From IMG/VR virus record IMGVR_UViG_3300046777_000441, positions 1-30,434 of that record: a stretch of DNA of 30,434 bases. The stretch is one strand, 5' to 3'. The notes below the pieces were generated by a model. The model was not told where the DNA came from. It ran no database searches and saw nothing but the letters and a program-made list of their open reading frames with translations. Source of the DNA: a virus. The translations under genes and the position numbers were made by a program. Positions 6,582 to 30,434 of this stretch are shown one piece after another. Numbering within the stretch: position 1 is the stretch's first letter; each line of letters starts with the position of its first letter.

Positions 6582-6610
6582 TTGACTTTTAACCAATTTT
6601 ATGGTATAAA
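6582..6610 (+). promoter_or_regulatory. Sigma-70 promoter abutting the adaptor gene start
   Basis: TTGACT (6582-6587) and TATAAA (6605-6610) are separated by exactly 17 bases. Transcription would be expected to start near 6616-6618, essentially on the ATG at 6613. It is the only strong rightward promoter I find in the late half. Confidence 0.65.
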
Positions 6611-17684: not shown

Positions 17685-17821
17685 TCAGTTTCTTCCCAAT
17701 CTACTTCTTTTAGAAGTCTGTTATAATCTTCTGAAGCTATGTCGAGTAGCTCCAGAAGTAATACTTCGTCCAAACTCTTCAACCGTTCTTTTAACTCTGG
17801 CAGTGTAAGAGTACGATTCAT
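17681..17821 (-). CDS. Small hypothetical protein, 46 aa
   Basis: MNRTLTLPELKERLKSLDEVLLLELLDISSEDYNRLL-type sequence (here DIASEDYNRLLKEVDWEETE): short, leucine-rich and amphipathic helical. LxLPELxxRLKxxDEVxLLELLxI is a small family I have seen next to phage nucleotide genes, but no function is known to me. It lies two bases after the stop of the gene upstream and overlaps the reductase start by ATGA. Probably a regulatory or inhibitor-type helix bundle; this is speculation. Confidence 0.7.
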   Translation of the reverse strand: MNRTLTLPELKERLKSLDEVLLLELLDIASEDYNRLLKEVDWEETE

Positions 17822-17822
17822 T

Positions 17823-18113: not shown

Positions 18114-18147
18114 TGGTTTCTGCTCCTTCATTGTTTTGTGTGCATCG

Positions 18148-18480
18148 TTAAGAATTTTTACTAATGATGTAGTCAAGGTAATGTCTCGCTTTCTCTAAGT
18201 CTTGTACTCCGTCTTTATGTTTCCAACGTAGTATATATTTTACCACATTTCCTTCCCAGAAGTCAAGCTCCCAAGCATCGATAATATCCCAAGGCTGGAT
18301 GCCGTTACCTTTGTGATAATGCTTACCGCCTACTTGCTTGTCCCTAGGTTTATCTAACTCAGGAATGTAGGAGTCTAACTCTGGTTCTTCTACTTGCAGC
18401 CTACGAAAGTATTCCTCAAGTGTTATCTCACCTTCACATTCTACATATCCATACGGATAAGGCATTGCTACTGGATTCAT
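18148..18480 (-). CDS. DUF3310 protein, T7 gp1.7-like, 110 aa
   Basis: Residues 48-108 carry the DUF3310 signature: DKQVGGKHYHKGNGIQPWDII, WELDFWEGNVVKYILRWKHK, then DGVQDLEKARHYLDYII. In T7 the related gp1.7 is a nucleotide kinase acting on dTMP and dGMP, so a nucleotide-metabolism role fits the reductase nearby. The N-terminal 45 residues (acidic, Pro-containing) are an extra, probably flexible part. Its ATG overlaps the metallophosphoesterase stop (ATGA). Whether this shorter protein has kinase activity is unproven. Confidence 0.88.
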   Translation of the reverse strand: MNPVAMPYPYGYVECEGEITLEEYFRRLQVEEPELDSYIPELDKPRDKQVGGKHYHKGNGIQPWDIIDAWELDFWEGNVVKYILRWKHKDGVQDLEKARHYLDYIISKNS

Positions 18481-19241
18481 AAATACCTCTTCTTTAAAAA
18501 GTCTAAGGAAACAAACATCTCATCGAAGCAACCATCACGAACTTCGTGTAAGACCACAATACCTCGCCAATAGTTGTTACCCTGTGCTCCCAAGTAATCC
18601 TCATCGTGCTCATAACAACTCCCTGCGATTATCGCTGTAAGCGTCTTCCCATCTGCTCTAGTAGCGTAAGCAACTTGTCTGCCTTGCTGATGCCCCACCA
18701 CACACGACTGGTGTTTCTTGGAGATAATCGCTGCTGCCGAGCCAACAGGTCTATTAAGAGCCCCTGCAGTAACATAATGGGAATATAGAACACCATCAAT
18801 AATGATAGGCTGCTCAAACGGAATAACTTCCCAACCAGCTTTAGCATAATTCAAATCCTCAATAGAAATTGTACCATCAAGCATTGAATCGTTTTCAACT
18901 GCACGATTAATACGATGCTCGTGATTACCAATCGTTAACACCATTCGTGGTTTGTACACCTTATCTTTATTTCGACGCTGTCTTGCTTGCAAGTCACGCA
19001 GTGGTTTCAATAAGATGTCTTGTGCTTCATGGACTGCAGCTACATCGTGCTTATATCGTCGACCCTCGAAGGACTTCTTTCCTTTATCATAGCTTGATAG
19101 TGAAGGCATGTCCGCAAAGTCGCCAATATTAACAATAACATCAGGACGCTTCTTAACAATGTAGTTTCCAATCGCTCGTAAGTAAGTGTAATCGTGTCCA
19201 GGTTTTACCTGACAGTCAGGAATTATTAAATGTGTTGGCAT
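18477..19241 (-). CDS. Calcineurin-like metallophosphoesterase, 254 aa
   Basis: The metal-binding blocks of this superfamily are visible in order: IPDCQ (7-11), NIGDFAD (38-44, GD at 40-41), GNHEHR (105-110), a later YSHY (about 153-156) and VVGHQQGR (about 182-189). These bind two divalent metals and hydrolyse phosphodiesters or phosphomonoesters. The substrate is unknown; phage members may act on nucleic-acid ends or nucleotides. The start directly abuts a 39-aa gene and its stop overlaps the DUF3310 gene, so it belongs to the nucleic-acid operon. No signal peptide is present. Confidence 0.88.
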   Translation of the reverse strand: MPTHLIIPDCQVKPGHDYTYLRAIGNYIVKKRPDVIVNIGDFADMPSLSSYDKGKKSFEGRRYKHDVAAVHEAQDILLKPLRDLQARQRRNKDKVYKPRMVLTIGNHEHRINRAVENDSMLDGTISIEDLNYAKAGWEVIPFEQPIIIDGVLYSHYVTAGALNRPVGSAAAIISKKHQSCVVGHQQGRQVAYATRADGKTLTAIIAGSCYEHDEDYLGAQGNNYWRGIVVLHEVRDGCFDEMFVSLDFLKKRYL

Positions 19242-19361
19242 TTATAATAAGTTCCACTTAGCTTCTTTCCAATAATAAATCGAACCTTTGTCGTCTATAC
19301 CTAAGACAGTAAAGTTCGAGTTATCCCCAATAACTTTCCATTCAACTATTTTTATTTCCAT
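19242..19361 (-). CDS. Small hypothetical protein, 39 aa
   Basis: MEIKIVEWKVIGDNSNFTVL continues GIDDKGSIYYWKEAKWNLL and ends one base before the metallophosphoesterase start. Alternating hydrophobic residues and three Trp suggest one small beta hairpin or sheet. Its beginning overlaps the end of the PDDEXK nuclease gene by 20 bases. No family recognised. Confidence rests on the gap-free packing with both neighbours. Confidence 0.55.
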   Translation of the reverse strand: MEIKIVEWKVIGDNSNFTVLGIDDKGSIYYWKEAKWNLL

Positions 19362-19692
19362 TGTTCTTCACCAAGTTAAAAAAGTATTCAGCATCTACTA
19401 AAGCAAGAGGCTTACTATTGTTCTGCTTCAAGATAACGAGTGGCTCGACTAATCCATGCGTCTGAGCTTGTTCATAATCCTTGAAGACAGCAATAGCTTT
19501 ACGGCTCTTGCACTCCACTTGAAAAGGAAAGACCATACGAGCAGCCGAGCTAAGCTGTACATCTTCTCCACTCGCTCCCATGCTTGTGCTTCTGACATCA
19601 TCAGTGCTCAGCGTAGGGAATCGTTGGAGTATCTGATCCCGCACCCACTGCTGCAGTTTTCTTCCTTTTGCTTTTGCTGACTGGGGTTTCAA
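19342..19692 (-). CDS. PDDEXK-type nuclease, Holliday-junction-resolvase-like, 116 aa
   Basis: The start is a TTG with AAAGG nine bases upstream. The fold signature is E43-D44 in GASGEDVQLS and E60-C-K62 in FQVECKSRK, followed by FKDYEQAQTHG; this is the D/E...ExK pattern of PDDEXK nucleases. The family, common in phage replication operons, is usually annotated as resolvase-like. It would cut branched or damaged DNA intermediates. It overlaps the upstream gene by 92 bases. Activity on four-way junctions is expected from the family, not shown here. Confidence 0.8.
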   Translation of the reverse strand: MKPQSAKAKGRKLQQWVRDQILQRFPTLSTDDVRSTSMGASGEDVQLSSAARMVFPFQVECKSRKAIAVFKDYEQAQTHGLVEPLVILKQNNSKPLALVDAEYFFNLVKNNGNKNS

Positions 19693-19942
19693 CTTTAATT
19701 ACCTTTCGTTTCTTAATCCATGCTTTTGGTATGTGCATCCTAGCGTTACTATCTTCCTTAGACACCGTTGATGCTATACACAAAGCGTCCGCTGTTTCAC
19801 TAATCAAGAATCCGATTGTGTGACAGAGGTGGATTTCTGCTTTGACTTCGTCTTCCCAGCCTGAGTCGGCAACTGCGTCGACCCACTGGACGTAGATAGC
19901 TTTGGTGGAGTCCAGATCTCGTTTGGCTGCCTTCTTATCCAC
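19601..19942 (-). CDS. Conserved phage hypothetical protein, 113 aa
   Basis: The conserved part is YVQWVDAVADSGW followed by IHLCHTIGFLISETADALCIASTVS and ARMHIPKAWIKKRKVIK. This is a compact beta-type protein common next to phage exonuclease genes. I placed the start at GTG 19942, which gives 17 residues before the conserved YVQW; earlier codons in this frame lack a better start. It overlaps the exonuclease 3' end by 139 bases and the nuclease start by 92, unusually long for this genome. The C-terminal 30 residues are Lys/Ser-rich and poorly structured. Function unknown. Confidence 0.65.
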   Translation of the reverse strand: MDKKAAKRDLDSTKAIYVQWVDAVADSGWEDEVKAEIHLCHTIGFLISETADALCIASTVSKEDSNARMHIPKAWIKKRKVIKVETPVSKSKRKKTAAVGAGSDTPTIPYAEH

Positions 19943-20574
19943 AGCAACTGTCCGTTCTCCAGCACCCTTGCTTCGTCTCCTTTGTAAGCTTCCAGGACAG
20001 CAAGATACATTTCGTTTTCGTCTTTGCATTCTTTAAGTATTCTTTCCGCTTTAACTGCTCCAATGCCTTTAATCCCAATAACATTGTCTACCCTATCGCC
20101 AGTTAAAATCTGTTTATAAAAATTCCTAATCCCTTCTTCCTCAGTTATGAAGTAACGATGATCTTTTGTAAAGTTAAAGTGATCACCTCGAATCATGTCC
20201 AAGTCTTTATCAATGGTACAGATGCAATACTCTCCAACTTCTAAAGCATACGCTGCAATTCCGATAGCGTCATCAGCTTCTTGGTCTTGTATCATTTCAA
20301 AGTCCCAAGCTTTCTGCATGTAGTCTCGGAGGATGTCGTAATGCTGTGGCTTTGCAGCTTTTCGATTGCCCTTATATGGAGCAGTCTTGGCTATCTCGTG
20401 CCTGAAGTTATTACCACCTGTTAAGAATCCTTGATAGTCTTCGAATCCATTGAAGAGAATTAGGTTCTCTAAGAACTCACCGCACCTAGCTATCGCTATT
20501 GACTCTGGCTCACCCTCTGAGGCAAAGCCAATGCGATACACTAGAATGTCCCCATCAATCAGGGCTAAATGCAT
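19804..20574 (-). CDS. T7 gp6-like 5'-3' exonuclease (flap endonuclease family), 256 aa
   Basis: Conserved metal-binding acids appear in LIDGDILVYR (6-15), QDQEADDAIGI (about 98-108) and TIDKDLDMI (about 121-129). A helix-three-turn-helix DNA-binding block is at TGDRVDNVIGIKGIGAVKAERIL (about 158-180). This is the FEN/5'-3' exonuclease fold that removes RNA primers and degrades host DNA. The last 40 residues (PPKLSTSSGSTQLPTQAG...) are low-complexity and overlap the next gene, so they may be an extension without fold. Its ATG overlaps the SSB stop by one base. It works with the polymerase and SSB in the same operon. Confidence 0.88.
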   Translation of the reverse strand: MHLALIDGDILVYRIGFASEGEPESIAIARCGEFLENLILFNGFEDYQGFLTGGNNFRHEIAKTAPYKGNRKAAKPQHYDILRDYMQKAWDFEMIQDQEADDAIGIAAYALEVGEYCICTIDKDLDMIRGDHFNFTKDHRYFITEEEGIRNFYKQILTGDRVDNVIGIKGIGAVKAERILKECKDENEMYLAVLEAYKGDEARVLENGQLLWIRRQPNEIWTPPKLSTSSGSTQLPTQAGKTKSKQKSTSVTQSDS

Positions 20575-20987
20575 TAGAGAGCTTCTTCTTCTAAGTCCTC
20601 AATGCCGACACCAGTAGGTTTGTATTCAATTAGCTCCGTCACAATCAACTTACTGACACCGACACCAACTCCTTTACCAATAGTGTAAGGATAAGGCTTG
20701 ATCATGGCGACACACTTAGATCCATTAGCGATCTTAGCAGTGATTGGATTACCCTTCTCGTCGACTGCAATGATGGGATAATTCTTGCTCTTAGCTGTGA
20801 CGAAGTTACCTTGATTAGGTTTACGCTCATCCTTCTTAACTGTGATGCCCATCTCAGTCAAAGCCTTGACAGATTCATCAGACAGATTGCAAAGATCTAC
20901 CTGATATTTATTCGAGAACTTGTTCGGGGTATCTAACGAAGCCCAGAAAATATCTGCTTTGATTGGGGTTGGTTTTGCTGCATTCAT
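20574..20987 (-). CDS. Single-stranded DNA-binding protein, T7 gp2.5-like, 137 aa
   Basis: Length, the beginning AAKPTPIKADIFWASLDTPNKFSNKYQVDL, the OB-fold-type alternating middle and the acidic C-terminal tail GIEDLEEEAL fit phage gp2.5-like SSBs. In these the acidic tail contacts polymerase and helicase. A strong AAGGAG site lies eight bases before the ATG and a near-perfect sigma-70 promoter sits just upstream (21047-21019), consistent with high production of a stoichiometric protein. It coats ssDNA during replication and recombination. No alternative call fits better. Confidence 0.8.
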   Translation of the reverse strand: MNAAKPTPIKADIFWASLDTPNKFSNKYQVDLCNLSDESVKALTEMGITVKKDERKPNQGNFVTAKSKNYPIIAVDEKGNPITAKIANGSKCVAMIKPYPYTIGKGVGVGVSKLIVTELIEYKPTGVGIEDLEEEAL

Positions 20988-21018
20988 ATTTATTTCTCCT
21001 TAGTAAACAACTACATAT

Positions 21019-21047
21019 ATTATACACTACGATTAGTGCTTTGTCAA
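21019..21047 (-). promoter_or_regulatory. Sigma-70 promoter for the SSB gene
   Basis: On the minus strand TTGACA (21047-21042) and TATAAT (21024-21019) are separated by exactly 17 bases, matching the bacterial consensus at all twelve positions. The -35 box lies in the last codons of the 59-aa gene. It would drive SSB, exonuclease and the genes beyond, leftward. Confidence 0.85.
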
Positions 21048-21212
21048 CTGCTTCTCATCTAGACCGTCTGTTTCCAAGATAGCGATTGTACGTTCAAGTA
21101 ATTCCAGCGTCTCTTCCTCAGGCAATCTAGTGAATACCATCAAGTAGCCGTCCTTCTCAGCGAGGACAACTAAATCATTTACTCCTTCAGGTAACTCCTG
21201 CATTTCACTCAT
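21033..21212 (-). CDS. Small acidic hypothetical protein, 59 aa
   Basis: MSEMQELPEGVNDLVVLAEKDGYLMVFTRLPEEETLELLERTIAILETDGLDEKQLTKH: a beta hairpin followed by an acidic helix is likely. Its start overlaps the upstream stop by ATGA and it ends within the SSB promoter region. No family recognised. The coupling at the start and sensible composition make it likely to be real. Confidence 0.65.
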   Translation of the reverse strand: MSEMQELPEGVNDLVVLAEKDGYLMVFTRLPEEETLELLERTIAILETDGLDEKQLTKH

Positions 21213-21385
21213 GGTCGAAAGTCCGCATCATGAATCGCTTGAGCTATCTCTGTAATAATTGGGTTAGCATGCTGCGTCTGAGCATCAGCAATATAATCAG
21301 ATAACTTATATAAGATACTCATAACTTCTGTAGGGCTAGTGCCTGAGCGTAACTCCTGTAATACTGCTAATTTCAATCTATCCAT
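21209..21385 (-). CDS. Small hypothetical protein, 58 aa
   Basis: I chose the ATG at 21385 (MDRLKLAVLQELRSG), which overlaps the polymerase stop as TGATG and has AAGGA nine bases upstream; an ATG six codons earlier lacks such a site. The protein is helical: LKLAVLQELRSGTSPTEVMSILYKLSDYIADAQTQ, then PIITEIAQAIHDADF. No membrane segment or enzyme motif. It may be a small polymerase-linked regulator, but this is only positional. Confidence 0.65.
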   Translation of the reverse strand: MDRLKLAVLQELRSGTSPTEVMSILYKLSDYIADAQTQHANPIITEIAQAIHDADFRP

Positions 21386-23115
21386 CAGTGTGTTTCCTTC
21401 CATGAATTACCTACTTTGTACTCGCCAGTGAGAGGGCATCGCATATTCAAGACACGACCTGCTTCTTCGATAGCTTGTACTCCTAACTTACCTGCTTCAT
21501 CTGCTCGTGATTCTTCTACCTCAATCTGCCATTCGTCATGCACATTTGCTACGAACTTGTAACTAATCTTAGCTCGTCTTAGTTTCTCGTTCAAGAGAAC
21601 TAAAGCTTGCTTCATGACAATCGCACCCGCACCTTGGAGAAGAGTGTTGAGTGCTGCGTGGTCAGACCTAACTTGTAGTCTACGTCCATCAAGACCTGGC
21701 AATGTTCCCGACGTACTGCAGATTCGAGCCACTTTCTCCCTAAGCTCTCGAAGTTTCGGGGTGTTCGCCAGAAAAGAATCAATAAGCTTTTGTCCTTCTT
21801 TTGCTCCAGCACCCACAACTTTCCCGATCTTGGCAGCCCCTGCACCATAGAGGAATGCATAGATAAACGTCTTTGCTTGAGCACGTGTTTCGAGACCAGC
21901 AGCTTTTTGGTTTGCTGTGTGGATATCACCTTGTGTGACCTCATAAATATACGCATCGTCTTGCATGTAGTGAGCAAGCATTCGAAGCTCTAGTCCAGAC
22001 GCATCGATACCTACTAACTTATATCCTTTCTCTACAGTCCAAAGATCCCTACACTCTGCTCCGTAGGGGCTACCACAACTAGGGACTTGTGCCATGTTGG
22101 GGCTGTGGTGTGTCATTCGTCCAGTGACTGCACCATTCGTGATGACCTTGCCATGTACTCGTCCATCGTTACCTACTGTCTTCAACCACGAATCAATCTG
22201 TGCTATTCTTTTCTGCAGTAACAAGTACTCAGCGATAGCTTTAGCTTCAGGAAAATCTAAACCTTCGAGCGTCCCTTCGTCGACGATTGGCTGCCCTGTT
22301 TCTGTGAACTTCTCTGGCTTCCAGCCTTTCTCGATGAGTCGTTCCCCGATTTGCTTGCGACTGCCTGGGTTGAAGACTTCGACTTTTGGGGTGAGTTCTT
22401 TTCCTGTCTTGTCTGATATGCGTGGGGTAACTTTGGTTGGAAAAATGTTTTGAAGCTCAGTTTCAAGAAGAACAAGCTTAGCTTGAAGCGTTGATAATAA
22501 AGTGATAGCTTCTTTCTGGTTGAGTTTGAAGCCATTCCTTTCTTGTTTCGCAATGATCGTTTGTACATCGTGCTCAAGTTTAATACTCCTATCGTCAAAT
22601 TTGTTTGCCTTAAGTTCAGCAGTTAAATGAAAGTACAACTTCTCTGTTACTAAAGTATCTTGGATACAGTACGATTCTAATAAGGGCAGTACTGGCTGAT
22701 CAAACTCCAGTCCATCTCGGTAGCCAGTAAATCCTTGTGCCTTCTCATCTGTCACGAAAGTCATGTTAGTCATCCAAGCCCATATCTTTTTATACGGTGC
22801 TTTGAAAACTCCTAAGCGTTGACCCCATGCTTCAAGACTATGACCGCCCTCCAGACTTGGGTTTAGGAGGCGACTTAACACGAGCGTGTCGCACACTTGG
22901 CTCGGCTTCATCGTAACTTTCCAGTTCTCTCTCAGTACTGGGGCATCGAAGCATATTCCGTTGTGCATGATAATCAAATCGCAACTGTCCAAATACTTTT
23001 GTAATCCGTTTGCTTCCTTCCATACTGTAACGTCTCCTCCTACTTCTCTTGTAACACACATCCAGATCTTATCGTGTGTGCTGTTTGTTTCGATGTCGAG
23101 AATAATCTTTCTCAT
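21385..23115 (-). CDS. Family A DNA polymerase (T7-like) with 3'-5' exonuclease domain, 576 aa
   Basis: I start at ATG 23115 (MRKIILDIETNS), because the exonuclease motif follows at once; an upstream GTG would add 21 residues with no ribosome site. Exonuclease motifs: D7-x-E9 (LDIET), NGICFDAPVL (ExoII-like) and YCIQDTLV (ExoIII-like). Polymerase motifs: A, D371 in GIDASGLELRML; B, R411-x3-K415-x7-Y423G424 in RAQAKTFIYAFLYG, with Y419 at the position of T7 Tyr526; C, H526-D527-E528 in NVHDEW. It replicates the phage genome with the helicase, SSB and exonuclease nearby. It is shorter than T7's 704 residues, so the thioredoxin-binding insert is probably absent or small. A tyrosine at this site is usual in lytic phages, which agrees with the missing integrase. 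Confidence 0.93.
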   Translation of the reverse strand: MRKIILDIETNSTHDKIWMCVTREVGGDVTVWKEANGLQKYLDSCDLIIMHNGICFDAPVLRENWKVTMKPSQVCDTLVLSRLLNPSLEGGHSLEAWGQRLGVFKAPYKKIWAWMTNMTFVTDEKAQGFTGYRDGLEFDQPVLPLLESYCIQDTLVTEKLYFHLTAELKANKFDDRSIKLEHDVQTIIAKQERNGFKLNQKEAITLLSTLQAKLVLLETELQNIFPTKVTPRISDKTGKELTPKVEVFNPGSRKQIGERLIEKGWKPEKFTETGQPIVDEGTLEGLDFPEAKAIAEYLLLQKRIAQIDSWLKTVGNDGRVHGKVITNGAVTGRMTHHSPNMAQVPSCGSPYGAECRDLWTVEKGYKLVGIDASGLELRMLAHYMQDDAYIYEVTQGDIHTANQKAAGLETRAQAKTFIYAFLYGAGAAKIGKVVGAGAKEGQKLIDSFLANTPKLRELREKVARICSTSGTLPGLDGRRLQVRSDHAALNTLLQGAGAIVMKQALVLLNEKLRRAKISYKFVANVHDEWQIEVEESRADEAGKLGVQAIEEAGRVLNMRCPLTGEYKVGNSWKETH

Positions 23116-23177
23116 TGAATTCCATTTCCAAAAGTTATTCCAGTTAAATAAATTTAATGGAGGACATTGCCATACCA

Positions 23178-23399
23178 CTACACTGGTACTCCTTGTCTAA
23201 CTCGCCATGGATACTCACGCTCTAGCCAGAAGCAGCGGAGATCTCCGAACTCGTCTCGTGCTAGATAGCCATCCCACTTGGAGTACTTCGTGGAGTAGCT
23301 ACTGCATTGAATGTTATCTAGTCTGTGCTTGTGTTCACTTATTAGAAAGCCAGCCATCAAGCCAAGCAAAGCAGCAACTACGATTAAAGATTGTCTCAT
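23178..23399 (-). CDS. Small membrane-anchored protein, 73 aa
   Basis: Residues 5-20 (LIVVAALLGLMAGFLIS) are one transmembrane or signal-anchor helix. They are followed by a polar domain with two Cys (C32 and C57) and five Trp/Tyr-rich strands (KWDGYLARDEFGDLRCFWLEREYPWRV). The start overlaps the 56-aa coiled-coil gene by ATGA. A periplasmic or external beta domain anchored in the inner membrane is the simplest layout, and the two Cys could form a disulphide. No family recognised. Confidence 0.65.
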   Translation of the reverse strand: MRQSLIVVAALLGLMAGFLISEHKHRLDNIQCSSYSTKYSKWDGYLARDEFGDLRCFWLEREYPWRVRQGVPV

Positions 23400-23566
23400 T
23401 TTGATTTCGCTTTCTTAGCAGCTTGCTCAGCAGCAGCAACTACGTTCTGCTGAGTAGCCATCACGAAAGCGTCTTGTAACTCCTTAACCATTGCTTCCAA
23501 CTTAGCAACTCGTTTACCTAATTCATTCACTGATTCGATAACCTTAGGCATTTGTAATAAACTCAT
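23396..23566 (-). CDS. Small coiled-coil protein, 56 aa
   Basis: AAGGA lies five bases before ATG. The sequence MSLLQMPKVIESVNELGKRVAKLEAMVKELQDAF has heptad-spaced V/L/I residues; the last third (AAAEQAAKKAKSK) is an Ala/Lys tail. It overlaps the membrane gene start by ATGA. It may be an oligomeric linker or regulator; function unknown. Confidence 0.65.
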   Translation of the reverse strand: MSLLQMPKVIESVNELGKRVAKLEAMVKELQDAFVMATQQNVVAAAEQAAKKAKSK

Positions 23567-23596
23567 ATCATTCCTTAATGTAATATAAATGTTACC

Positions 23597-23830
23597 TTAT
23601 AGCCATTTATGTAACTCATATGTTACATAAGAGACTACTCCTGCAAAGTACAGGGCAACTGCTACTGCTTCAACCAGTATCAAAGGTATATCACGCTGCA
23701 GTACACCAGCATAAGTCCACAATGCAGATCCCACCAGTCCAAATAATATATTAAGTGGATATACATTGAAGCTAGTTAACGCTATTCCGATTAAGCATAG
23801 TGCAGTTCCAAACCATTTGATTAATTGCAT
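23597..23830 (-). CDS. Small integral membrane protein (DUF6552-like), 77 aa
   Basis: The ATG at 23830 gives MQLIKWFGTALCLIGIALTSFNVYPLN; earlier codons read through the tail of the 44-aa gene and are rejected. Three hydrophobic spans are visible: about 6-21, 27-43 (LFGLVGSALWTYAGVLQ) and 50-68 (ILVEAVAVALYFAGVVSYV). The KWFGTxLCLIGIALTSFNxYPLN pattern recurs in small phage and marine-bacterial membrane proteins (DUF6552-type, from memory). The role is unknown; membrane effects early in infection are possible. It overlaps the end of the upstream secreted-peptide gene by ten bases. Confidence 0.7.
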   Translation of the reverse strand: MQLIKWFGTALCLIGIALTSFNVYPLNILFGLVGSALWTYAGVLQRDIPLILVEAVAVALYFAGVVSYVTYELHKWL

Positions 23831-23955
23831 ATCGTGACATTCGGGCAAACGGTACAGGTGATGTACTTTCCACCAGATGAAACGATGGTAGTTGTACAAG
23901 CCATACTAATATTATACACGAACATCATAGTTACTGCAAGTAAAATCTTTTTCAT
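23821..23955 (-). CDS. Secreted Cys-containing peptide, 44 aa
   Basis: MKKILLAVTMMFVYNISMA is a signal peptide of ordinary length with a Lys-Lys start. The first residue after it is Cys20 in SMA-C, which is a weak lipobox; cleavage by Sec signal peptidase is also possible. The mature part, CTTTIVSSGGKYITCTVCPNVTICN, has four Cys in 25 residues, so one or two disulphides or metal binding are likely. The start overlaps the upstream PDDEXK-like gene end, and the end overlaps the following membrane gene. A periplasmic or surface role early in infection is plausible; function is unknown. Confidence 0.65.
   Translation of the reverse strand: MKKILLAVTMMFVYNISMACTTTIVSSGGKYITCTVCPNVTICN
23911..23939 (-). 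promoter_or_regulatory. Sigma-70-like promoter inside the secreted-peptide gene
   Basis: TTGCAG (23939-23934) and TATAAT (23916-23911) are separated by 17 bases on the minus strand. The -10 is preceded by GTG and followed by AT, as in the other leftward promoters. It could boost the membrane, coiled-coil and polymerase genes. Confidence 0.5.
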
Positions 23956-24398
23956 AATAATCCTTTCATGTTTTGTTTCACATCTTGAAACATACTGTTG
24001 TGTATTACAACTACTGGTTCTGTCCGCTGTTCTCCTCTGCGTTGCATTACTTTTTCTTCAGGTTCTCCGTCAATGGTAAAGAACTTCAACCCATTATTAA
24101 ATTCTACCACCATGTAAGCACCAATGTTTTCGCTTAGTGCTTTCTGTTTCATTAGATAAAATTTCTTTTTACTGAATTGAAAATCAGGGTATGTTCCGAA
24201 GTTAATAAACCGTCTGCGATATTCTACAATTGCTTTTAGTTTATCTCCTTCGTAAACTTCCCAATCCCAAGTACTAAATTCATGCTGTGGTTTTACCTCC
24301 ATCGATAGAATACTTTCTAATAACTGGCGAGTGTTCTCTTGGTTACGCATGTCAGTCTGTATCTGATCAGCGTTCTTTCGAAACATTCCAGTTTCCAT
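23952..24398 (-). CDS. Hypothetical PDDEXK-like protein, 148 aa
   Basis: Between DMRNQENTRQLLESIL (16-31) and GAYMVVEF (93-100) the middle reads TWDWEVYEGDKLKAIVEYRRRFINFGTYPDFQFSKKKFYLMKQKALSEN. This order (N-terminal helix with E, a D, then E-x-R in a strand, K-rich helix, hydrophobic strand) is that of compact phage PDDEXK-fold nucleases. The canonical Lys of ExK is Arg or Tyr here (VEYRRR), so activity is uncertain. It overlaps the helicase stop by one base (TAATG) and is inside the replication operon. I class it as probable nuclease-fold, not proven enzyme. Confidence 0.55.
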   Translation of the reverse strand: METGMFRKNADQIQTDMRNQENTRQLLESILSMEVKPQHEFSTWDWEVYEGDKLKAIVEYRRRFINFGTYPDFQFSKKKFYLMKQKALSENIGAYMVVEFNNGLKFFTIDGEPEEKVMQRRGEQRTEPVVVIHNSMFQDVKQNMKGLL

Positions 24399-26035
24399 TA
24401 TAATGTTTTCTCCTCAGGTGGTAGCTCAGACATCCGACCAGTATCACGACGATACAGTAGACGACAAGCCAATCCAGTTAAACCACTAAAACGATTCTTC
24501 AATACTCGGACGTAAGTGGTATTCCGTTCCGTCACATCCTCGTGCTGACCGTTACGTTCAAGACCAATCACCATATCTGATAGTTGTGCAATCGATCCAG
24601 ACCCACGCAACTGGGCAAGCGATGTAGCTGCTCCTTCCTCGTGTCCTTTAGATTCAGGACGCTTGAGATGCGACACCACGAACAATGCAATGCCAGTCTC
24701 CTGGACAATCGTGCGAAGCTTAGTCATGATCTCGTCTAATGCTTTCCTTTCGTCACCGTTCTCCTGAGCACTGACAACAATCGATACGTGATCAAGGAAT
24801 ACATACTTACAATTAAGACCTTTTGCCATAAAGCGTACTCGGTTGATAATATTGTCAATGGCGGTAGACCCAAAATGATCAAACAAAAATAGACGATCAG
24901 TTCCAAGGGTAGCATCAAAGGCATAGCGTAACTCCTCATCAGTAGTCTGGCAGTCAGGCAAGTGCAAGGGTTTATTCGCAGCGAGTGCCATTAAACTCTT
25001 CGCAGTTTTCTTAACTGACTCCTCCAAAAACATCAAGCCAATATTGTCATCCGTCTTGCTCAGTATCTGCCACACAATCTCACGCAAGAACTGAGACTTA
25101 CCTAGTCCAGATCCTGCAGTCACTGTCACGAGTTCACCACAGCGAATACCGTAGGTCAAGTCATTCATTCCAAGGTAAGGATAATCTACGTCAGCCTTCT
25201 CCACTGGTTGATTAACTAGCTCCCACAGCGTAGAACCTGAGACGATACCGTCAGGTACGTACTTCTCAGCATTCCACCATGTGTCAATGAATTCTTTATT
25301 CTTACCACGACTCAGGTAATCACAGGCATCCTTGAGTTCCTTGATCGGATACTTGAACACGTGTGCCTTAGCCCCGAAGAGTTCAGCAACTTGGTTACTC
25401 GCTTGCTGTCCTGCTTCATCGTTATCAAAGCAGATCACAATCTTTTCAAACGAATCCAAGTACTCGAAGCTTGCTCGACAATCCTTGAGTGCTGAACTTG
25501 CACCGTTACGAATCGACACCACTGGGAAGCGTGAACCAGTTAGCTGATAGCAAGCCAGTGCATCGAACTCACCCTCGGTAATCGTGATAGCCTTCCCTCC
25601 AGGGGTGAACTTGTTCTGTCCGAATAATACAGCATGCTTCCAGTCACCGATGACAGAGAACTCCTTCTCCTCCACTCCACGAGTCTTGGCTGCAACAATC
25701 TTACCAGACGCATCAGCGTATGGAAAGTAGTATTTATTACCGTCAGAACCTGCACCAAAGTAGTGCATAGTACTAGCAGAAATACCACGCTCCTGTACTG
25801 GGATTGACTCTACATTATTTAATGCCTCTAGCACTGGTTTAAACCCTCCGTATTGCGTTTGTTTATCATGGTTGATACCCTCCCCTGCCCAAGCCTTTGC
25901 CATCGCTTCTGAGCCCTTCTTATACGTTCCACAACGGTGACAGAATTCATGACCGTCATCGTATAGACTGTTGGCATCCGAAGATCCGCAGTTCATGCAA
26001 GGTATATGCTTTAAAAACCTACTCTCTACTTTCAT
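24398..26035 (-). CDS. Primase-helicase, T7 gp4-like, 545 aa
   Basis: Three parts are visible. Residues 13-35 form a zinc-binding domain (C13, C16, C32, C35) used to read primer sites. Residues about 149-240 are a TOPRIM domain: ITEGEFD, with E154, and CFDNDEAG, with D204 and D206. Residues about 265-545 are a RecA-like SF4 helicase: Walker A in AGSGLGKS (307-314), Walker B-like YVFLDHVSIVV, and VVSHLKRP with the sensor His. It unwinds DNA and makes primers for the polymerase, working as a hexamer at the fork. Length is close to T7 gp4 (566). The final residues EEKTL are less acidic than in T7. The start follows a 45-aa membrane gene with an ATGA overlap. Confidence 0.93.
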   Translation of the reverse strand: MKVESRFLKHIPCMNCGSSDANSLYDDGHEFCHRCGTYKKGSEAMAKAWAGEGINHDKQTQYGGFKPVLEALNNVESIPVQERGISASTMHYFGAGSDGNKYYFPYADASGKIVAAKTRGVEEKEFSVIGDWKHAVLFGQNKFTPGGKAITITEGEFDALACYQLTGSRFPVVSIRNGASSALKDCRASFEYLDSFEKIVICFDNDEAGQQASNQVAELFGAKAHVFKYPIKELKDACDYLSRGKNKEFIDTWWNAEKYVPDGIVSGSTLWELVNQPVEKADVDYPYLGMNDLTYGIRCGELVTVTAGSGLGKSQFLREIVWQILSKTDDNIGLMFLEESVKKTAKSLMALAANKPLHLPDCQTTDEELRYAFDATLGTDRLFLFDHFGSTAIDNIINRVRFMAKGLNCKYVFLDHVSIVVSAQENGDERKALDEIMTKLRTIVQETGIALFVVSHLKRPESKGHEEGAATSLAQLRGSGSIAQLSDMVIGLERNGQHEDVTERNTTYVRVLKNRFSGLTGLACRLLYRRDTGRMSELPPEEKTL

Positions 26036-26169
26036 TTCTTTCCTTCTAACAATTCTAGTATCGCTTCATATGCACCCACTATGACCAGCATTATTGAAAA
26101 GATTAAGAGTGCTGGAATAATCCATAAAGGACAAGTGACTGCTAAGATAGCTGCTATAACTTTATTCAT
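26032..26169 (-). CDS. Small membrane protein, 45 aa
   Basis: MNKVIAAILAVTCPLWIIPALLIFSIMLVIVGAYEAILELLEGKK is mostly hydrophobic, with one long or two short helices (about 4-32) and a Lys end. The start overlaps the Zn-ribbon gene's stop region and the end overlaps the helicase start by ATGA. No family recognised. It may anchor or disturb the inner membrane. Confidence 0.6.
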   Translation of the reverse strand: MNKVIAAILAVTCPLWIIPALLIFSIMLVIVGAYEAILELLEGKK

Positions 26170-26401
26170 TTCTTCCCCATCGATGTGTACAATCTGGACA
26201 CTCCCAAGCTACCGTTCTATCTAAGTCTCTGTCGTATATTCCTAGAGCCCTACCCCATTTACCTTCGGTACGAGTAGCTCCGTAGAAACTAGCTGAGACA
26301 TCTGCTTCTTCTTTCGATCCAGTCTGAGCGTAGAAGTATTCCCAAACTAGACCACCATCAAGATCTGCTCCGCATGCGGGACAATAGCCATGCTCGTTCA
26401 T
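26162..26401 (-). CDS. Zinc-ribbon phage protein, 79 aa
   Basis: C7-x2-C10 (YCPACG) and C68-x2-C71 (ECPDC) form one four-Cys zinc ribbon. Between them is a conserved-looking stretch: WEYFYAQTGSKEEADVSASFYGATRTEGKWGRALGIYDRDLDRTVAW. This arrangement is common in small phage proteins near helicase genes. It likely binds nucleic acid or a protein partner; no catalytic residue beyond the metal ligands is visible. It overlaps the 59-aa gene upstream by ATGA and the membrane gene downstream by eight bases. Confidence 0.8.
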   Translation of the reverse strand: MNEHGYCPACGADLDGGLVWEYFYAQTGSKEEADVSASFYGATRTEGKWGRALGIYDRDLDRTVAWECPDCTHRWGRNE

Positions 26402-26577
26402 GAGTATTCGTATCCTATGTCAATCGTCATTGTGTCTTGTGCTTTAAGACGGATGTTCCAAGTATCTACAATGTCTTGCATTACAGCATCAATGCCGTAC
26501 AACTGAGCAAAGTCTACGATTTCCTGCAATGCAAAATGATAAGCCATCTCTTCAGGTTGATCTCTTAAGCTTGCCAT
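26398..26577 (-). CDS. Small hypothetical protein, 59 aa
   Basis: AGAGGAAACC precedes the ATG at 26577. MASLRDQPEEMAYHFALQEIVDFAQLYGIDAVMQDIVDTWNIRL is helical, with a short charged end DTMTIDIGYEYS. The stop overlaps the zinc-ribbon start (ATGA). An AT-rich leader (26578-26652) with a promoter upstream suggests that this gene begins a new transcript. Function unknown. Confidence 0.65.
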   Translation of the reverse strand: MASLRDQPEEMAYHFALQEIVDFAQLYGIDAVMQDIVDTWNIRLKAQDTMTIDIGYEYS

Positions 26578-26652
26578 GGTTTCCTCTTTAAAGTTATGTC
26601 TAAGATATAAACTATATAAAATACATTACTATATAAATATCTCTATAAAGAT

Positions 26653-26681
26653 ATTATAGCACAGTTATTCTTCATAGTCTA
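26653..26681 (-). promoter_or_regulatory. Leftward promoter upstream of the 59-aa gene
   Basis: TAGACT (26681-26676), 17 bases, then TATAAT (26658-26653) preceded by TGC (an extended -10). It reads into the zinc-ribbon, membrane and helicase genes through an AT-rich leader of about 70 bases. It lies partly within the end of the 74-aa gene. Confidence 0.65.
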
Positions 26682-26889
26682 GCTTTTTTTGTGATGTGAA
26701 ATCTGAGTCATCTAGGTCTTCATAGTACTCATCTTCCTCGTCATATAAATCATTACGCTCATATGAAAGTAATTGATCACTAACTGTAGCGTAACATTTA
26801 TTACACATGTCTAGGTACTCTTCCGTATTGATACTCTTACGAGTAGCTTCAAAGTCACTAAGAATTTTATCACAGCAAATGCATCTCAT
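26665..26889 (-). CDS. Small zinc-finger-type acidic protein, 74 aa
   Basis: C3-x2-C6 and C29-x2-C32 make a treble-clef-like zinc site: MRCICCDKILSDFEATRKS, then EYLDMCNKCYATV. The second half is very acidic (NDLYDEEDEYYEDLDDSDF). I recognise the MRCICCxKxLxDFEATRK pattern from many phage early regions, function unknown. AAAGGA precedes the ATG and a promoter lies at 26937-26909. An acidic tail joined to a zinc finger could mimic DNA or bind a host protein, which is speculative. Confidence 0.75.
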   Translation of the reverse strand: MRCICCDKILSDFEATRKSINTEEYLDMCNKCYATVSDQLLSYERNDLYDEEDEYYEDLDDSDFTSQKKLDYEE

Positions 26890-26908
26890 GGTGTATTCCT
26901 TTTCAAAT

Positions 26909-26937
26909 ATTATATCACAATTAAACTAAAGCGTCAC
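26909..26937 (-). promoter_or_regulatory. Leftward promoter upstream of the zinc-finger gene
   Basis: GTGACG (26937-26932), 17 bases, then TATAAT (26914-26909). The -35 box overlaps the last codons of the 63-aa gene, and the -10 is preceded by TGTGA and followed by AT, as in the family of early promoters seen here. Confidence 0.6.
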
Positions 26938-27112
26938 CTAAAATCTTGTAAGCCCACTGAAATTTATTCTCAGGATTACGCTTACGCTCCATCATAAGTA
27001 CTTGAATCTTAAAGGATTTGTCTAGTTTTAAGAATCGTTCTGCCTCTTCTTTATAACCAAATATTCTAACTACTGACCCATCCTCATCTAAAATCTTATA
27101 TAACTTTTTCAT
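26921..27112 (-). CDS. Small hypothetical protein, 63 aa
   Basis: The ATG at 27112 overlaps the previous stop as ATGA, and GGGGAG lies four bases upstream; an ATG four codons earlier is less likely. The sequence MKKLYKILDEDGSVVRIFGYKEEAERFLK shows a beta hairpin followed by helix, then KFQWAYKILGDALV. It is basic and small with no recognised family. It ends within the next promoter. Confidence 0.65.
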   Translation of the reverse strand: MKKLYKILDEDGSVVRIFGYKEEAERFLKLDKSFKIQVLMMERKRNPENKFQWAYKILGDALV

Positions 27113-27660
27113 AGTGCTCCCCATTGTTGTGCCATTGCGTCTGCGATACCCTGGTATGTTGTACTTCTAAGCTTCCATCGATCAGGACTTGGTGGCATCT
27201 TATGTACCTTAGCTTCTCTGCCCTCCACGATGTTAGTAGGTACAAGCTTAGGTAAATTTTTAAGCCACAAGCAAGTAGCTTTCGTTTCGCCATGACCAAA
27301 CTGCCAAGGTTGAATAATCTGATCAGGTTTTCTAATCCTTGAAGAGATAATACTAATCGGATTCTCCAAGGCAATACGCTCAATAGGTGCTGATAATAAT
27401 ACCTTGACAAACTCCAATGCTTCTGCTTGCTCTTGTACCTTATCCTTAAACCATCTAGCCCCTGATACTGCCAAGTGTGTGCAAGGTGGATGAGCGATCA
27501 TCAAATCCCAGCCATCGTTAATGATGTCTAGTACGTCTCCTTGGTAATGCTTTCCTGGAGCATCAGTAGGAAGCAAGTCGCATGATGTTGCGTCATGTCC
27601 AAGCTTAGTAAAAGCATCCCTAACCCGACCACTATACTCACAAGCCACTAGTACTTTCAT
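27109..27660 (-). CDS. C5 cytosine methyltransferase-like protein without recognition domain, 183 aa
   Basis: The ATG at 27660 has CGGAG seven bases upstream and overlaps the 39-aa gene stop. Motif I-like VACEYSGRVRDAF (about 5-17), HPPCTHLAVSG with the catalytic-type Cys60 (57-67) and ENP at 99-101 match the SAM-binding and PPC/ENV motifs of C5 methyltransferases. A normal enzyme has 300 or more residues with a target-recognition domain and motif X; these are absent here. A later block, HGETKATCLWLKNLPKLVPTN, is conserved in the short phage version. It may protect phage DNA or have a different SAM-dependent role. Activity is unproven. Confidence 0.7.
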   Translation of the reverse strand: MKVLVACEYSGRVRDAFTKLGHDATSCDLLPTDAPGKHYQGDVLDIINDGWDLMIAHPPCTHLAVSGARWFKDKVQEQAEALEFVKVLLSAPIERIALENPISIISSRIRKPDQIIQPWQFGHGETKATCLWLKNLPKLVPTNIVEGREAKVHKMPPSPDRWKLRSTTYQGIADAMAQQWGAL

Positions 27661-27776
27661 TGGAAGACTCCGTATAAATAGCATGCTGATTCCGCAAAAA
27701 TATAGTATAGCACATGTCCACTAAAGTATGCAAAAGCTGCCAGTAATGTATACTTTATGAATTTATCCTCGTTCAT
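27657..27776 (-). CDS. Tiny membrane protein, 39 aa
   Basis: MNEDKFIKYTLLAAFAYFSGHVLYYIFAESACYLYGVFQ has a likely transmembrane helix at about 9-30. Its start overlaps the end of the 24-aa frame and its stop overlaps the methyltransferase start by ATGA. Double overlap makes it credible despite its size. An extended -10-like TGCTATACT (27709-27704) lies inside it and may serve the methyltransferase gene. Function unknown. Confidence 0.55.
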   Translation of the reverse strand: MNEDKFIKYTLLAAFAYFSGHVLYYIFAESACYLYGVFQ

Positions 27777-27847
27777 AAGTCTCTCCCAATGTAGTATGTT
27801 AAGCAAACCCAAATGATAATAATGATTGTTTTATAATCAATCTCCAT
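27773..27847 (-). CDS. Candidate 24-aa membrane microprotein
   Basis: AGAGG lies eight bases before ATG 27847; the frame overlaps the previous stop by 11 bases and the next ATG by ATGA. MEIDYKTIIIIIWVCLTYYI is one hydrophobic helix with an acidic start and GRDL end. Such length is at the limit of recognition, so the call depends on its ribosome site and coupled position. Confidence 0.4.
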   Translation of the reverse strand: MEIDYKTIIIIIWVCLTYYIGRDL

Positions 27848-28121
27848 CGGCATAACCTCTAGCGACCGACCTCCAATAGTTTAATACTTTATCCTTCACA
27901 TCATTGGGAGCGAGTTCAAAAGGAATATCCTCGTAAACTGTACCAATAAATCCTGATTCTGCCAAGCCCTCGTACCATTGCTCATCCGCTTTCCAGTAGA
28001 ATTCCCCTTCAGGATCTTCGACCATATTAAACACTCGCTCTTCGATTAACTCTTCGTCAAAGTCCCCGTCCTCGGGCTCGTAATAACGATCGTTATAGTA
28101 CCCGCTATCGTATCTATTCAT
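27837..28121 (-). CDS. Acidic hypothetical protein, 94 aa
   Basis: The ATG at 28121 is chosen because GGAGG lies eight bases upstream; an ATG 13 codons earlier with GGAAAG is also possible. The protein is acidic and tyrosine/tryptophan-rich: MNRYDSGYYNDRYYEPEDGDFDEELIEERVFNMVEDPEGEFYWKADEQWYEGL, then KVLNYWRSVARGYADGD. It is likely soluble and could mimic nucleic acid, but no motif proves this. Function unknown. Confidence 0.6.
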   Translation of the reverse strand: MNRYDSGYYNDRYYEPEDGDFDEELIEERVFNMVEDPEGEFYWKADEQWYEGLAESGFIGTVYEDIPFELAPNDVKDKVLNYWRSVARGYADGD

Positions 28122-28163
28122 GTACTCTTCCTCCAATAAAAATTGTTTAAGTTTGCCCATGTA

Positions 28164-28340
28164 TTACTTTCCATTGGTTAAAATTTTACTTTCCAATTCC
28201 TGTAATCTGTGAAGCTTATCCATTAAAAACTTTCGTATATCCTCATCTATGTGAGGGTTATCCATATCGTTACTGACTTGGTGTTGATTATACCATATTC
28301 CCTGCAATAATAGCGTGCGTTCTTGTGTAGTGAATTCCAT
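28164..28340 (-). CDS. Small hypothetical helical protein, 58 aa
   Basis: MEFTTQERTLLLQGIWYNQHQVSNDM is followed by a charged helix IRKFLMDKLHRLQELESKILTNGK. It starts one base before the peptidase-like gene's end and ends three bases before the first possible start of the 94/107-aa protein. Coiled-coil or helical pair is likely. No family recognised. Confidence 0.6.
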   Translation of the reverse strand: MEFTTQERTLLLQGIWYNQHQVSNDMDNPHIDEDIRKFLMDKLHRLQELESKILTNGK

Positions 28341-28341
28341 T

Positions 28342-28764
28342 TTATCCTACCTTATAAAAGTGTTTTACTCGTGCCTTTGGATTTGGCTCGTGGTTATCAT
28401 ACCATACTCCATCAATTAAAGCCAAGGCATGCTGAGATTTTACCACAATATAGCGTCCTTTAGGGAATAACTCAGCAAACTTTTTTAATGTAATGTTTAA
28501 GTGAGTAGGCATTTTCCAATTACCTTTTACTTTTATGATGTCTTCCTCGTTCTCGATCTGGTAATCCTTTTCAGCATTCATAAGCCAGTTAATAGAGCAT
28601 GCCATCATAAGCCAGGATGATCCCCTACCATGTACCCTACCAAATGCCTTATAAACCTTATAGACATCGTAATAGGGCACGTCTAAGGCTATTGACGTGG
28701 CATTGAGTGCACAAGAGTTACGATCCTCGCTTGGAGCATGTACTATTTTCTTAATGTATTCCAT
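28342..28764 (-). CDS. Papain-like/C39-like cysteine-peptidase-fold protein, 140 aa
   Basis: The catalytic-style pattern is C18 in DRNSCALNATSIAL, H112 in KSQHALALIDGVWYDN and D123/N124 just behind. The arrangement Cys at an N-terminal helix, then HxxxxxDGxxxD in the C-terminal sheet, is that of papain-like and C39-like folds. The middle (LNITLKKFAELFPKGRYIVV) gives the strand before the His strand. It is very short and lacks a signal, so it would act in the cytoplasm. It may cut or bind a host protein early in infection; the substrate is unknown. I call the fold with fair confidence and activity with little. Confidence 0.62.
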   Translation of the reverse strand: MEYIKKIVHAPSEDRNSCALNATSIALDVPYYDVYKVYKAFGRVHGRGSSWLMMACSINWLMNAEKDYQIENEEDIIKVKGNWKMPTHLNITLKKFAELFPKGRYIVVKSQHALALIDGVWYDNHEPNPKARVKHFYKVG

Positions 28765-28777
28765 TTTATAAACCCTC

Positions 28778-29104
28778 CTAAGTATTCCATAAGTTTAATT
28801 CTAGGTTATGTAATTTGTCAACTATTTTTTTATAAACTTGTGCCTTGCTTTTATAGTAGTGGTAATTCTTATCACCTTCCCTAAAGTTTGCCCAAGTATT
28901 ACTTTCCGCATTGTGCAATATATCCCTGATAAGACTAGCGTCTTCGTAATGAGACTTAAAACCGTCAATATTGTAATGAGCGATAAAACCTGAGCATAAA
29001 TATAAATACTTGTATCCCGTCCCGTTAAGTTTGCTGATATCTGAGCATGCCTTAACTACATTATTCACGATTAAATTTTGTTGCTTTATTGTCAATGCCT
29101 CCAT
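28778..29104 (-). CDS. Conserved phage hypothetical protein, 108 aa
   Basis: MEALTIKQQNLIVNNVVKACSDISKLNGTGYKYLYLCSGFIAHYNIDGFKSHYEDA is a pattern seen in many phage early regions. It continues with charged helices to YKSKAQVYKKIVDKLHNLEL. It is soluble and mostly helical, with no enzymatic motif. It begins one base after the 58-aa gene's stop and GAAGGAG lies upstream. Function unknown. Confidence 0.7.
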   Translation of the reverse strand: MEALTIKQQNLIVNNVVKACSDISKLNGTGYKYLYLCSGFIAHYNIDGFKSHYEDASLIRDILHNAESNTWANFREGDKNYHYYKSKAQVYKKIVDKLHNLELNLWNT

Positions 29105-29105
29105 G

Positions 29106-29282
29106 TTAAATTACTCCTTCAAATATAGTTTTAGCGGTCTCTAGATTGTATTGAGTACTTTCGTATACCTGATAATCAGGATTGAATTCACAAAACTCTA
29201 GAGCCTCCTTTAGCGTATCTAATCCAAATATATCAAACTCTCCATGCTCAGTATCTCTATATACCAAATATAAGTTTTTCAT
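29106..29282 (-). CDS. Small acidic hypothetical protein, 58 aa
   Basis: AAGGAG lies nine bases before the ATG. MKNLYLVYRDTEHGEFDIFGLDTLKEALEFCEFNPDYQVYEST predicts a beta-hairpin, helix and strand, then NLETAKTIFEGVI. Tiny acidic alpha/beta proteins like this are frequent in early operons. No family assigned. Confidence 0.6.
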   Translation of the reverse strand: MKNLYLVYRDTEHGEFDIFGLDTLKEALEFCEFNPDYQVYESTQYNLETAKTIFEGVI

Positions 29283-29300
29283 TTTTCAATTCTCCTTAGT

Positions 29301-29942
29301 TTACTTAGTTGCAATAATCTTGATAACTTTAGCCATTTTAACCCCATGGGCTTTATATGCGATAACTTTCACGTCCTTATCATAGCATGCCCTACAACCA
29401 TTACATTTCCCTTCGTGCTCATAAGCTTTACATTCAAAAGCCCCTACTGGTAATGTATCGCTAAATATTGTGCTAGTTGTAGTGCCTTCGATAATTCCAC
29501 CACTAACGCTATCACTCGAAAATCTTACCACTACATTGGGTAAAGCTTGCATTCTAGCGATAACACTAGCAAACTTACTAAATTTATACATGCGAGTAGG
29601 AAGCCAATGTTTTACCCATGGAGTTAAACTCATAACCTGATAAATTTTCTCAGCTAATCGGATGTCGTACATGTCACCACTATCAAACCACCTAAAGTAC
29701 CTGCAAGAATCTAAAGCCAATACCATATCCGTAGTCCATCTAGTACGCTTCCAGTCTTCACGATTCTCTAAGCGTGGTTTCTTAACATTGGAAAACCTGT
29801 AATTACCAGTAGTTGCATAGCATCCACTGCAAGCGGGTACTAACTCTCCGTTAGAATCCTTAGATCCTGGACAAGTTTCCAATGCCTGAAGTGACCACGA
29901 TAAGATCCCATCAAGCTTACTAGTTTTAGACAAATTGATCAT
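29301..29942 (-). CDS. GP88-family (Gene product 88) phage protein, 213 aa
   Basis: The first 60 residues carry SKTSKLDGILSWSLQALETCPGS and ELVPACSGCYATTGNYRFSNVK, with C24, C38 and C41. Later blocks are YFRWFDSGDMYDIRLAEKIYQVM, LTPWVKHWLPTRMYKF and VVRFSSDSVSGG. The C-terminal cluster CKAYEHEGKCNGCRACYDKDVKVIAY holds four Cys. This is the GP88 domain layout of actinobacteriophages and many other phages. Metal or iron-sulphur binding is likely from the Cys pattern; the reaction is unknown. The start overlaps the 39-aa gene by ATGA, and it is an early, immediately expressed gene. Confidence 0.82.
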   Translation of the reverse strand: MINLSKTSKLDGILSWSLQALETCPGSKDSNGELVPACSGCYATTGNYRFSNVKKPRLENREDWKRTRWTTDMVLALDSCRYFRWFDSGDMYDIRLAEKIYQVMSLTPWVKHWLPTRMYKFSKFASVIARMQALPNVVVRFSSDSVSGGIIEGTTTSTIFSDTLPVGAFECKAYEHEGKCNGCRACYDKDVKVIAYKAHGVKMAKVIKIIATK

Positions 29943-30058
29943 TTCGACAACCTTTCAATCATCATTAAACACTCACGAATAAATAAATTATCACGTCTTC
30001 CTTTAGTAATTTTTAGCCTGTATTCTAGTTGCCATTTCCACCATTCTAAATCACTCAT
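29939..30058 (-). CDS. Small basic helical protein, 39 aa
   Basis: MSDLEWWKWQLEYRLKITKGRRDNLFIRECLMMIERLSK is short, basic and Trp-rich. AGGAGGAAGTAATC gives a strong ribosome site before ATG 30058. It overlaps the GP88 start by ATGA. It may bind nucleic acid or a membrane surface; function unknown. Confidence 0.6.
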   Translation of the reverse strand: MSDLEWWKWQLEYRLKITKGRRDNLFIRECLMMIERLSK

Positions 30059-30071
30059 GATTACTTCCTCC

Positions 30072-30170
30072 TTATGCGACATATGATACATAAACAATTA
30101 ACATTGTAAAGCTTACAAGTAAAAACCCTGTATTGAGTAAGCTTATTAGTTTTTCCTTACGTGACATCAT
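30072..30170 (-). CDS. Tiny membrane protein, first early gene, 32 aa
   Basis: AGGAGG lies eight bases before the ATG at 30170. MMSRKEKLISLLNTGFLLVSFTMLIVYVSYVA has a basic start and one transmembrane helix (about 10-31). It is the first gene behind the strong early promoter at 30226-30198, so it is probably made early in quantity. Function unknown; membrane-acting host-takeover or superinfection-exclusion roles are possibilities only. Confidence 0.6.
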   Translation of the reverse strand: MMSRKEKLISLLNTGFLLVSFTMLIVYVSYVA

Positions 30171-30197
30171 AGTTAATTCCTCCTAGTTAGTAACTCA

Positions 30198-30226
30198 ATT
30201 ATCATAGTTTATTCCCATGTTGTCAA
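30198..30226 (-). promoter_or_regulatory. Main leftward early promoter
   Basis: TTGACA (30226-30221), 17 bases, then GATAAT (30203-30198). It is eleven of twelve consensus matches with ideal spacing and is followed by a strong ribosome site for the first early gene. An 11-bp palindrome lies just upstream (30237-30247). Confidence 0.82.
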
Positions 30227-30434
30227 CAATGTTATTTCACAATGTGATAAACTTCTGAGCATGCTTACGAGTATCTATCCTAGGATGGATGTCTAATCAA
30301 GGTACTTATAAATATGCTTAAGAGTGTGGCATCACAACCCACACACTCGCTAAACTAGCAAGTAAACTATCCAACAAGCTTGATAAACTGTACAGCGTAA
30401 CTCTAAAGCATGGGGGAGGGGGCTAGCTGTAAAG
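30227..30434. promoter_or_regulatory. Non-coding control region upstream of the early genes
   Basis: No credible gene is seen. The region holds the palindrome TCACA-A-TGTGA at 30237-30247, the 10-bp palindrome ATCCTAGGAT at 30277-30286, and a 7-bp inverted repeat GAGTGTG (30322-30328)/CACACTC (30342-30348) with a 13-base loop. It also has a direct repeat ATGCTTAnGAGT at 30261-30272 and 30314-30325, and a G-rich run near 30412-30421. Several TAAACT copies are present. It could be an origin, operator cluster or genome-end neighbourhood; none of these is proven. Confidence 0.55.

Follow-up and report, generated by a model that had tools for sequence, protein, structure and literature searches.

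Repeated TG-bearing -10 regions as candidate host-polymerase promoters in an uncultured podovirus-like phage group

Five -10 regions on the minus strand of a viral DNA share a short core that extends beyond a plain promoter hexamer, which raises the question of whether these sites are promoters and which RNA polymerase or accessory factor reads them. The DNA is an IMG/VR virus record, a linear sequence of 30,434 bp that was analysed over its whole length and is termed the window here. Its minus strand carries the replication module, in which a scan against PHROGs recognized genes for ribonucleotide reductase, metallophosphoesterase, a Gp2.5-like SSB, DNA polymerase and primase/helicase, preceded by small early ORFs. 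The remaining large ORFs lie on the plus strand and, judged by orthologues in larger relatives, would represent the structural, late module, the module names being assigned partly by eye. Both modules are present in one such relative, G004 (39.7 kb), beside an ORF whose GRRCGKS motif reads by eye as that of a terminase. A megablast search with positions 15000-30434 matched no phage record, and the best cultured relatives by polymerase and primase protein are the pelagiphages HTVC103P, HTVC104P and HTVC115P (DNA polymerase 47-48%, primase 50-52%), the last of which also has a weak match to the tail protein of the window (27% over 26% of its length). The phage group can accordingly be described as uncultured and podovirus-like, without a close cultured relative; a hunt for the host among cellular genomes with the primase as query found no relative. 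Related sequences were collected as the best 80 of 274 loci bearing the primase and the best 80 of 468 loci bearing a late gene. Among the small early ORFs, the one at 26665-26889 (minus strand) encodes a 74-aa protein with two CxxC-like pairs, conceivably a small zinc-binding regulator, which is matched in 54 of these 80 primase loci and by no PHROG or Pfam family.

Position and register of the repeated sites

The five -10 boxes, together with an early promoter at 30203, lie exactly at the coordinates given in an earlier note on this DNA, counted from the first T of the -10 on the minus strand. The shared core described there is indeed repeated, but it is not one motif, as two registers are mixed. 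The hexamer is TATAAT at four of the five sites and TATACT at 27709, and the exact sequence TGTGNTATAATAT occurs at only two of them (26651-26663 and 26907-26919), with 27709 differing by one mismatch, that in its box. At 26658 (TGTGC), 26914 (TGTGA) and 27709 (TGTGC), TG occupies -15/-14, one base before the -10, in the classical TGn or TRTGn arrangement. At 21024 (AGTG directly followed by TATAATAT) and 23916 (CGTG directly followed by TATAATAT), the n is missing and TG falls at -14/-13, the spacers ending in TAGTG and TCGTG, respectively. The extended -10 proposed in the earlier note thus applies to 26658, 26914, 27709 and the phage group as a whole, and not to 21024 and 23916.

A spacer of 17 bp was found at all of the first four sites, as had been claimed, but calling their -35 boxes identifiable was generous except at 21024. 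This latter site (21019..21047, minus strand) combines TTGACA (6/6), 17 bp ending in TAGTG, and TATAAT, a 12/12 match without TGn, and is the putative promoter of the Gp2.5-like SSB gene at 20574..20987 on the same strand (PHROG 112, E=1.4e-7). The 23916 site (23911..23939, minus strand) consists of TTGCAG (3/6), 17 bp ending in GTG, and TATAAT, and is a probable promoter, not TGn, within a 44-codon ORF. Two candidate extended -10 promoters follow on the minus strand: TAGACT (4/6), 17 bp, TGTGC and TATAAT at 26653..26681, 5' of ORF 26398-26577, and GTGACG (4/6), 17 bp, TGTGA and TATAAT at 26909..26937, directly 5' of ORF 26665-26889. The fifth site (27704..27733, minus strand), a probable promoter in a 39-codon ORF, carries TTGCAT at a spacer of 18 bp, TGTGC and TATACT, so that at four of the five sites the -35 matches at 3-4 of six positions at best. 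The early promoter (30198..30226, minus strand; TTGACA-17-GATAAT) has no TG and, as previously stated, lacks the core. A further TGn match on the minus strand, TTGACT-18-TGTGG-TAAAAT at 18242, lies inside ORF 18148-18480 and was left out of the counts; a site like it is present in G001, G004 and G008.

Conservation and promoter families in relatives

The exact pattern TGTGNTATAAT is present in 11 of 17 records, with 15 matches in all versus one for the reversed control pattern, and the core is biased in strand among the primase loci (31 forward and three reverse in the 40 nearer loci; three and none in the 40 more distant ones). Before the SSB gene, TATAAT is kept in 28 records, including the window, all with a primase identity of at least 68%; among the matches listed, TATAAT is missing from this place in several of the more distant records. 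These promoters comprise 19 distinct sequences, 13 with TGn (mostly TGTGG or TGTGA) and six without, and their -35 match peaks at a spacer of 17. The place of 26658 is taken in relatives by TTGACA-17-ATG[T/C]-TATACT, with TGn in 19 of 19 sites, and both this family and that of 27709 retain the TG but differ at n. Conservation of the 26914 site is poor: counterparts are found only in L001, L023 and L024, and in several relatives among the matches listed its place is coding sequence without such a site.

Families of promoter-like sites were examined in 128 loci and the window, the loci comprising 40 of the 80 primase loci (identity at least 68%), eight genome halves and the 80 late loci, with overlapping loci collapsed by clustering. 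Sites were picked blind to TG, requiring at least 11 of 12 matches in -35 plus -10, and TGn occurred in 14 of 37 such families versus 49 of 1063 weak-site families (p=2e-9), the latter derived from a sample of 1500 out of 4981 distinct weak sites. Before TATAAT or TATACT, TRTGn was present in 4/415, 4/288, 7/98 and 12/33 families at a best -35 match of 0-2, 3, 4 and 5-6, respectively (p about 4.6e-12 for the two extremes), while GTG touching the box showed no enrichment with -35 quality (5/415 versus 2/33, p=0.09). The 13 strong TGn families share TTGACA, an A-rich spacer, TATGn, TATAAT and a following A, and TTGACA or TTGACT is found in many strong families of the relatives. In the phage group, TGn and TRTGn thus stand far above background at good -35/-10 pairs 16-18 bp apart, on both strands and before both replication and late genes. 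Such a rise of TRTGn with -35 quality is what characterizes sigma70-type promoters. The possibility that TGn trades off against -35 quality was considered and rejected, since the mean best -35 match of the SSB promoters is 4.38 for the 13 with TGn and 4.17 for the six without, and since TGn rises with -35 quality across families.

On the late strand, a promoter relic or variant of the window (6582..6610, plus strand) reads TTGACT, 17 bp ending in TATGG, and TATAAA just before ORF 6613-7269. Upstream regions of the orthologues of this ORF were readable in 73 of 81 cases (72 of the best 80 of 468 loci, plus the window), 51 of them distinct, and TTGACT-17-TATGG-TATAAT was found in 28 of the 51. 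TGn occurs in 48 of the 51, 19 of which have TAGGAT (4/6), a sequence that could represent a ribosome site rather than a -10; the remaining three have neither. The copy in the window is six bases shorter than that of G004 and has lost the last T of the -10. Late-strand sites are also among the fullest promoter examples in the larger records (G004 at 5865, 10822 and 35953). In many relatives (L096-L175), only 5-8 bases separate the -10 of the late promoter from the ATG, with no ribosome site discernible by eye, and an mRNA starting from it would be nearly leaderless.

Early promoters of another kind were observed as well. The early region of L005, L006, L011 and L021 contains TTGACA-17-TATAGT without TGn, and the first early promoter of L005, L006, L011, L016 and L088 reads TTGAC[A/T]-17-TATAGT with flanks of GGGAG and mostly CCCTC, possibly an operator over the -10. 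In some relatives, the inverted-repeat symmetry across this promoter is weak, with only seven matching positions of at most 13.

Promoter-like sites inside tiny ORFs

The 23916 site is contained in a 44-aa ORF (23821..23955, minus strand) that was found in 21 loci including the window, starts with MKKILLAVTMMFVYNISMAC and lies between primase and polymerase; its product is exported or lipoprotein-like (MKKILLAV...SMAC, followed by a CTVC..C pattern) and has no PHROG or Pfam match. The 27709 site falls within a 39-aa membrane-protein-like ORF (27657..27776, minus strand) with homologous frames in 17 relatives and the window. The best-surviving alternative, which is nevertheless rather unlikely, holds that 23916 and 27709 are coding coincidences and that only the other three sites are real promoters. 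It draws on the conservation of both ORFs as proteins and on the TTGC-type -35 boxes of the two sites, which are poor by count (3/6). Against it, all 21 loci carry the codons TAT and AAT of the 23916 site and 20 of the 21 carry GTG and CTT, with variable codons between them, whereas the primase of 20 of these loci keeps a single codon in only 3/12 invariant Tyr columns, 1/12 Asn, 0/18 Val and 1/34 Leu columns (46/339 over all residues). Nine-base windows identical in all but one locus are limited to 5 of 539 in the primase of this set (L022 left out), 27 of the 30 other columns of the 44-codon ORF vary synonymously, and L021 retains TTGC in the -35 box although the residue differs. Equally conserved windows are not rare everywhere, which again speaks for coincidence: the polymerase (14 loci) has 41 three-codon control windows that are identical in all but one locus and the exonuclease (12 loci) has 16, and they are commoner there than in the primase. 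At 27709, CATGTGnTATACTAT changes only at n across 18 loci, whereas variation is seen at two further Tyr codons of this ORF. Taken alone this case is weaker, because its loci are more similar among themselves and, in 17 of them (L005 left out), an equal degree of conservation is reached by 38 of 540 windows in the primase. Both sites look as though they were held at the nucleotide level, 23916 on good evidence and 27709 on weaker evidence.

Next to the 27709 site lies a DNA methyltransferase-like gene (27109-27684, minus strand, PHROG 757) that was matched in only three (L010, L012 and L045) of the best 80 of 274 primase loci, suggesting gain and loss.

Which polymerase reads the sites

The sites are best explained as promoters for the host housekeeping (sigma70-type) RNA polymerase, a reading to which a probability of about 0.86 is assigned, and this enzyme would be their simplest reader. 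The host holoenzyme would contact the -35, TGn and -10 elements, and the promoters would serve leftward transcription of the replication module and, in relatives, rightward transcription of the structural module. Here, 26658 and 26914 would act as TGn promoters despite -35 boxes of 4/6, 21024 as a full -35/-10 promoter without TGn, and 23916 and 27709 probably as promoters within tiny ORFs that serve the genes downstream. If the host polymerase transcribes both modules, the timing of early and late genes would be set by something other than promoter class. In a highly speculative extension, a small early protein, e.g. the cysteine-pair product of ORF 26665-26889, would retune the host sigma70 polymerase in favour of TRTGn promoters later in infection, two promoters being located inside the genes of tiny membrane or exported peptides; if true, this retuning would constitute a temporal switch that needs neither a polymerase nor a sigma factor from the phage.

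It is improbable that the sites are mainly read by an alternative host sigma factor of the sigma70 family, similar to sigma-S. The sequences TGTGC-TATACT at 27709 and ATG[T/C]-TATACT in relatives presumably resemble a sigma-S-like -10, and a C precedes TATACT in some sites; the perfect or near-perfect TTGACA and TATAAT of most strong families instead point to a housekeeping sigma factor. No more likely is a phage-encoded sigma factor, co-sigma or activator that reads the repeated flank, which the earlier note had suggested and for which no support was obtained. The core does run past the hexamer, with an A and then usually a T after TATAAT (AT in 12/33 strong versus 36/415 families), and TGn is missing from the first early promoter of the window and of several relatives. 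However, all strongly conserved positions fit sigma70. The single-subunit RNA polymerase model PF00940 matched none of 17 records, G004 included, the window being incomplete and the records possibly fragments; the model matched two of three phage controls (LUZ100 at E=2e-111 and CRP-403, but not HTVC103P) and none of 14 cellular control genomes. Sigma region 4 (PF04545, the one sigma model searched) gave nothing in the window, and in the 17 records one match over the cut-off (G012, a 50-aa frame) and one under it (G006). The PHROGs scan of 20 minus-strand proteins found no transcription-regulator family, and small phage factors that such models do not recognize are possible.

Chance repetition in AT-rich DNA is barely credible: matches to the 13-mer with up to two mismatches are not significant (nine found versus 4.98 expected; 10 of 100 shuffles reach nine) and two-box sigma70 matches in 15000-30434 do not exceed expectation (37 versus 36.4), but the core GTG(n)TATAATAT occurs four times, always on the minus strand, against a mean of 0.05, with none of 300 dinucleotide shuffles reaching four, and the strand bias and conservation in relatives likewise contradict chance. 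With TATACT allowed, five cores were observed against 0.10 expected (0/300 shuffles), and plain TATAAT is depleted in the window (16 versus 25.6). Since the two-box matches equal chance, the case for host sigma70-type promoters rests on TGn and conservation.

No new kind of promoter is revealed, because the early promoters described for the Staphylococcus aureus Kayvirus vB_SauM-515A1 have nearly the same consensus (TTGACW, 17 bp, TRTGN, TATANT; PMC7698491) and the tgTGnT element is textbook knowledge. Both systems are of the sigma70 type; as reported there, that consensus belongs to the early class of a large Gram-positive myovirus, whereas the unrelated podovirus-like group considered here carries TRTGn on late genes as well and has an additional A(T) following the -10 in its strongest families. 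In bacterial extended -10 promoters, TG is placed at -15/-14, one base before the -10, as part of the -15 element tgTGnT, and spacers of 18 or more are said to be favoured in TGn promoters of Escherichia coli (PMC2613000), in contrast to the strong TGn families of this group, which mostly combine a spacer of 17 with a good -35. The Pseudomonas phage LUZ100 shares the T7-like replication genes (polymerase 44% identical) and is described as using host sigma70 promoters for early genes alongside an RNA polymerase of its own that has a separate 17-bp promoter motif (PMC10134795); the records analysed here yielded no such gene. For the pelagiphage Skadi, use of the host polymerase has been argued for a phage without its own (PMC10504331). 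In the 34 kb of HTVC103P that were scanned, the two consensus-type sites that seem to precede genes, at 10717 and 19136, lack TGn. The literature searched contained no description of the promoters of this phage group, though one may exist. The outcome is a map of promoters, obtained by comparison, for uncultured phages that have no close relative in culture; it suggests that host RNA polymerase serves both gene modules and adds two candidate cases of promoters under selection inside very small genes.

Two further observations concern single places. Two promoters of one relative (L090; around 15165 and 18350 of G006, minus strand) have TATAATATATGTA in common beyond the -10 while their surroundings differ. 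Finally, between the convergent modules of the window, a hairpin (GCCCC...GGGGC) and, after it, a T-run on the minus strand were noticed by eye at 15470-15500; they are absent from the program-made listing for the region and likely form a terminator of leftward transcripts.
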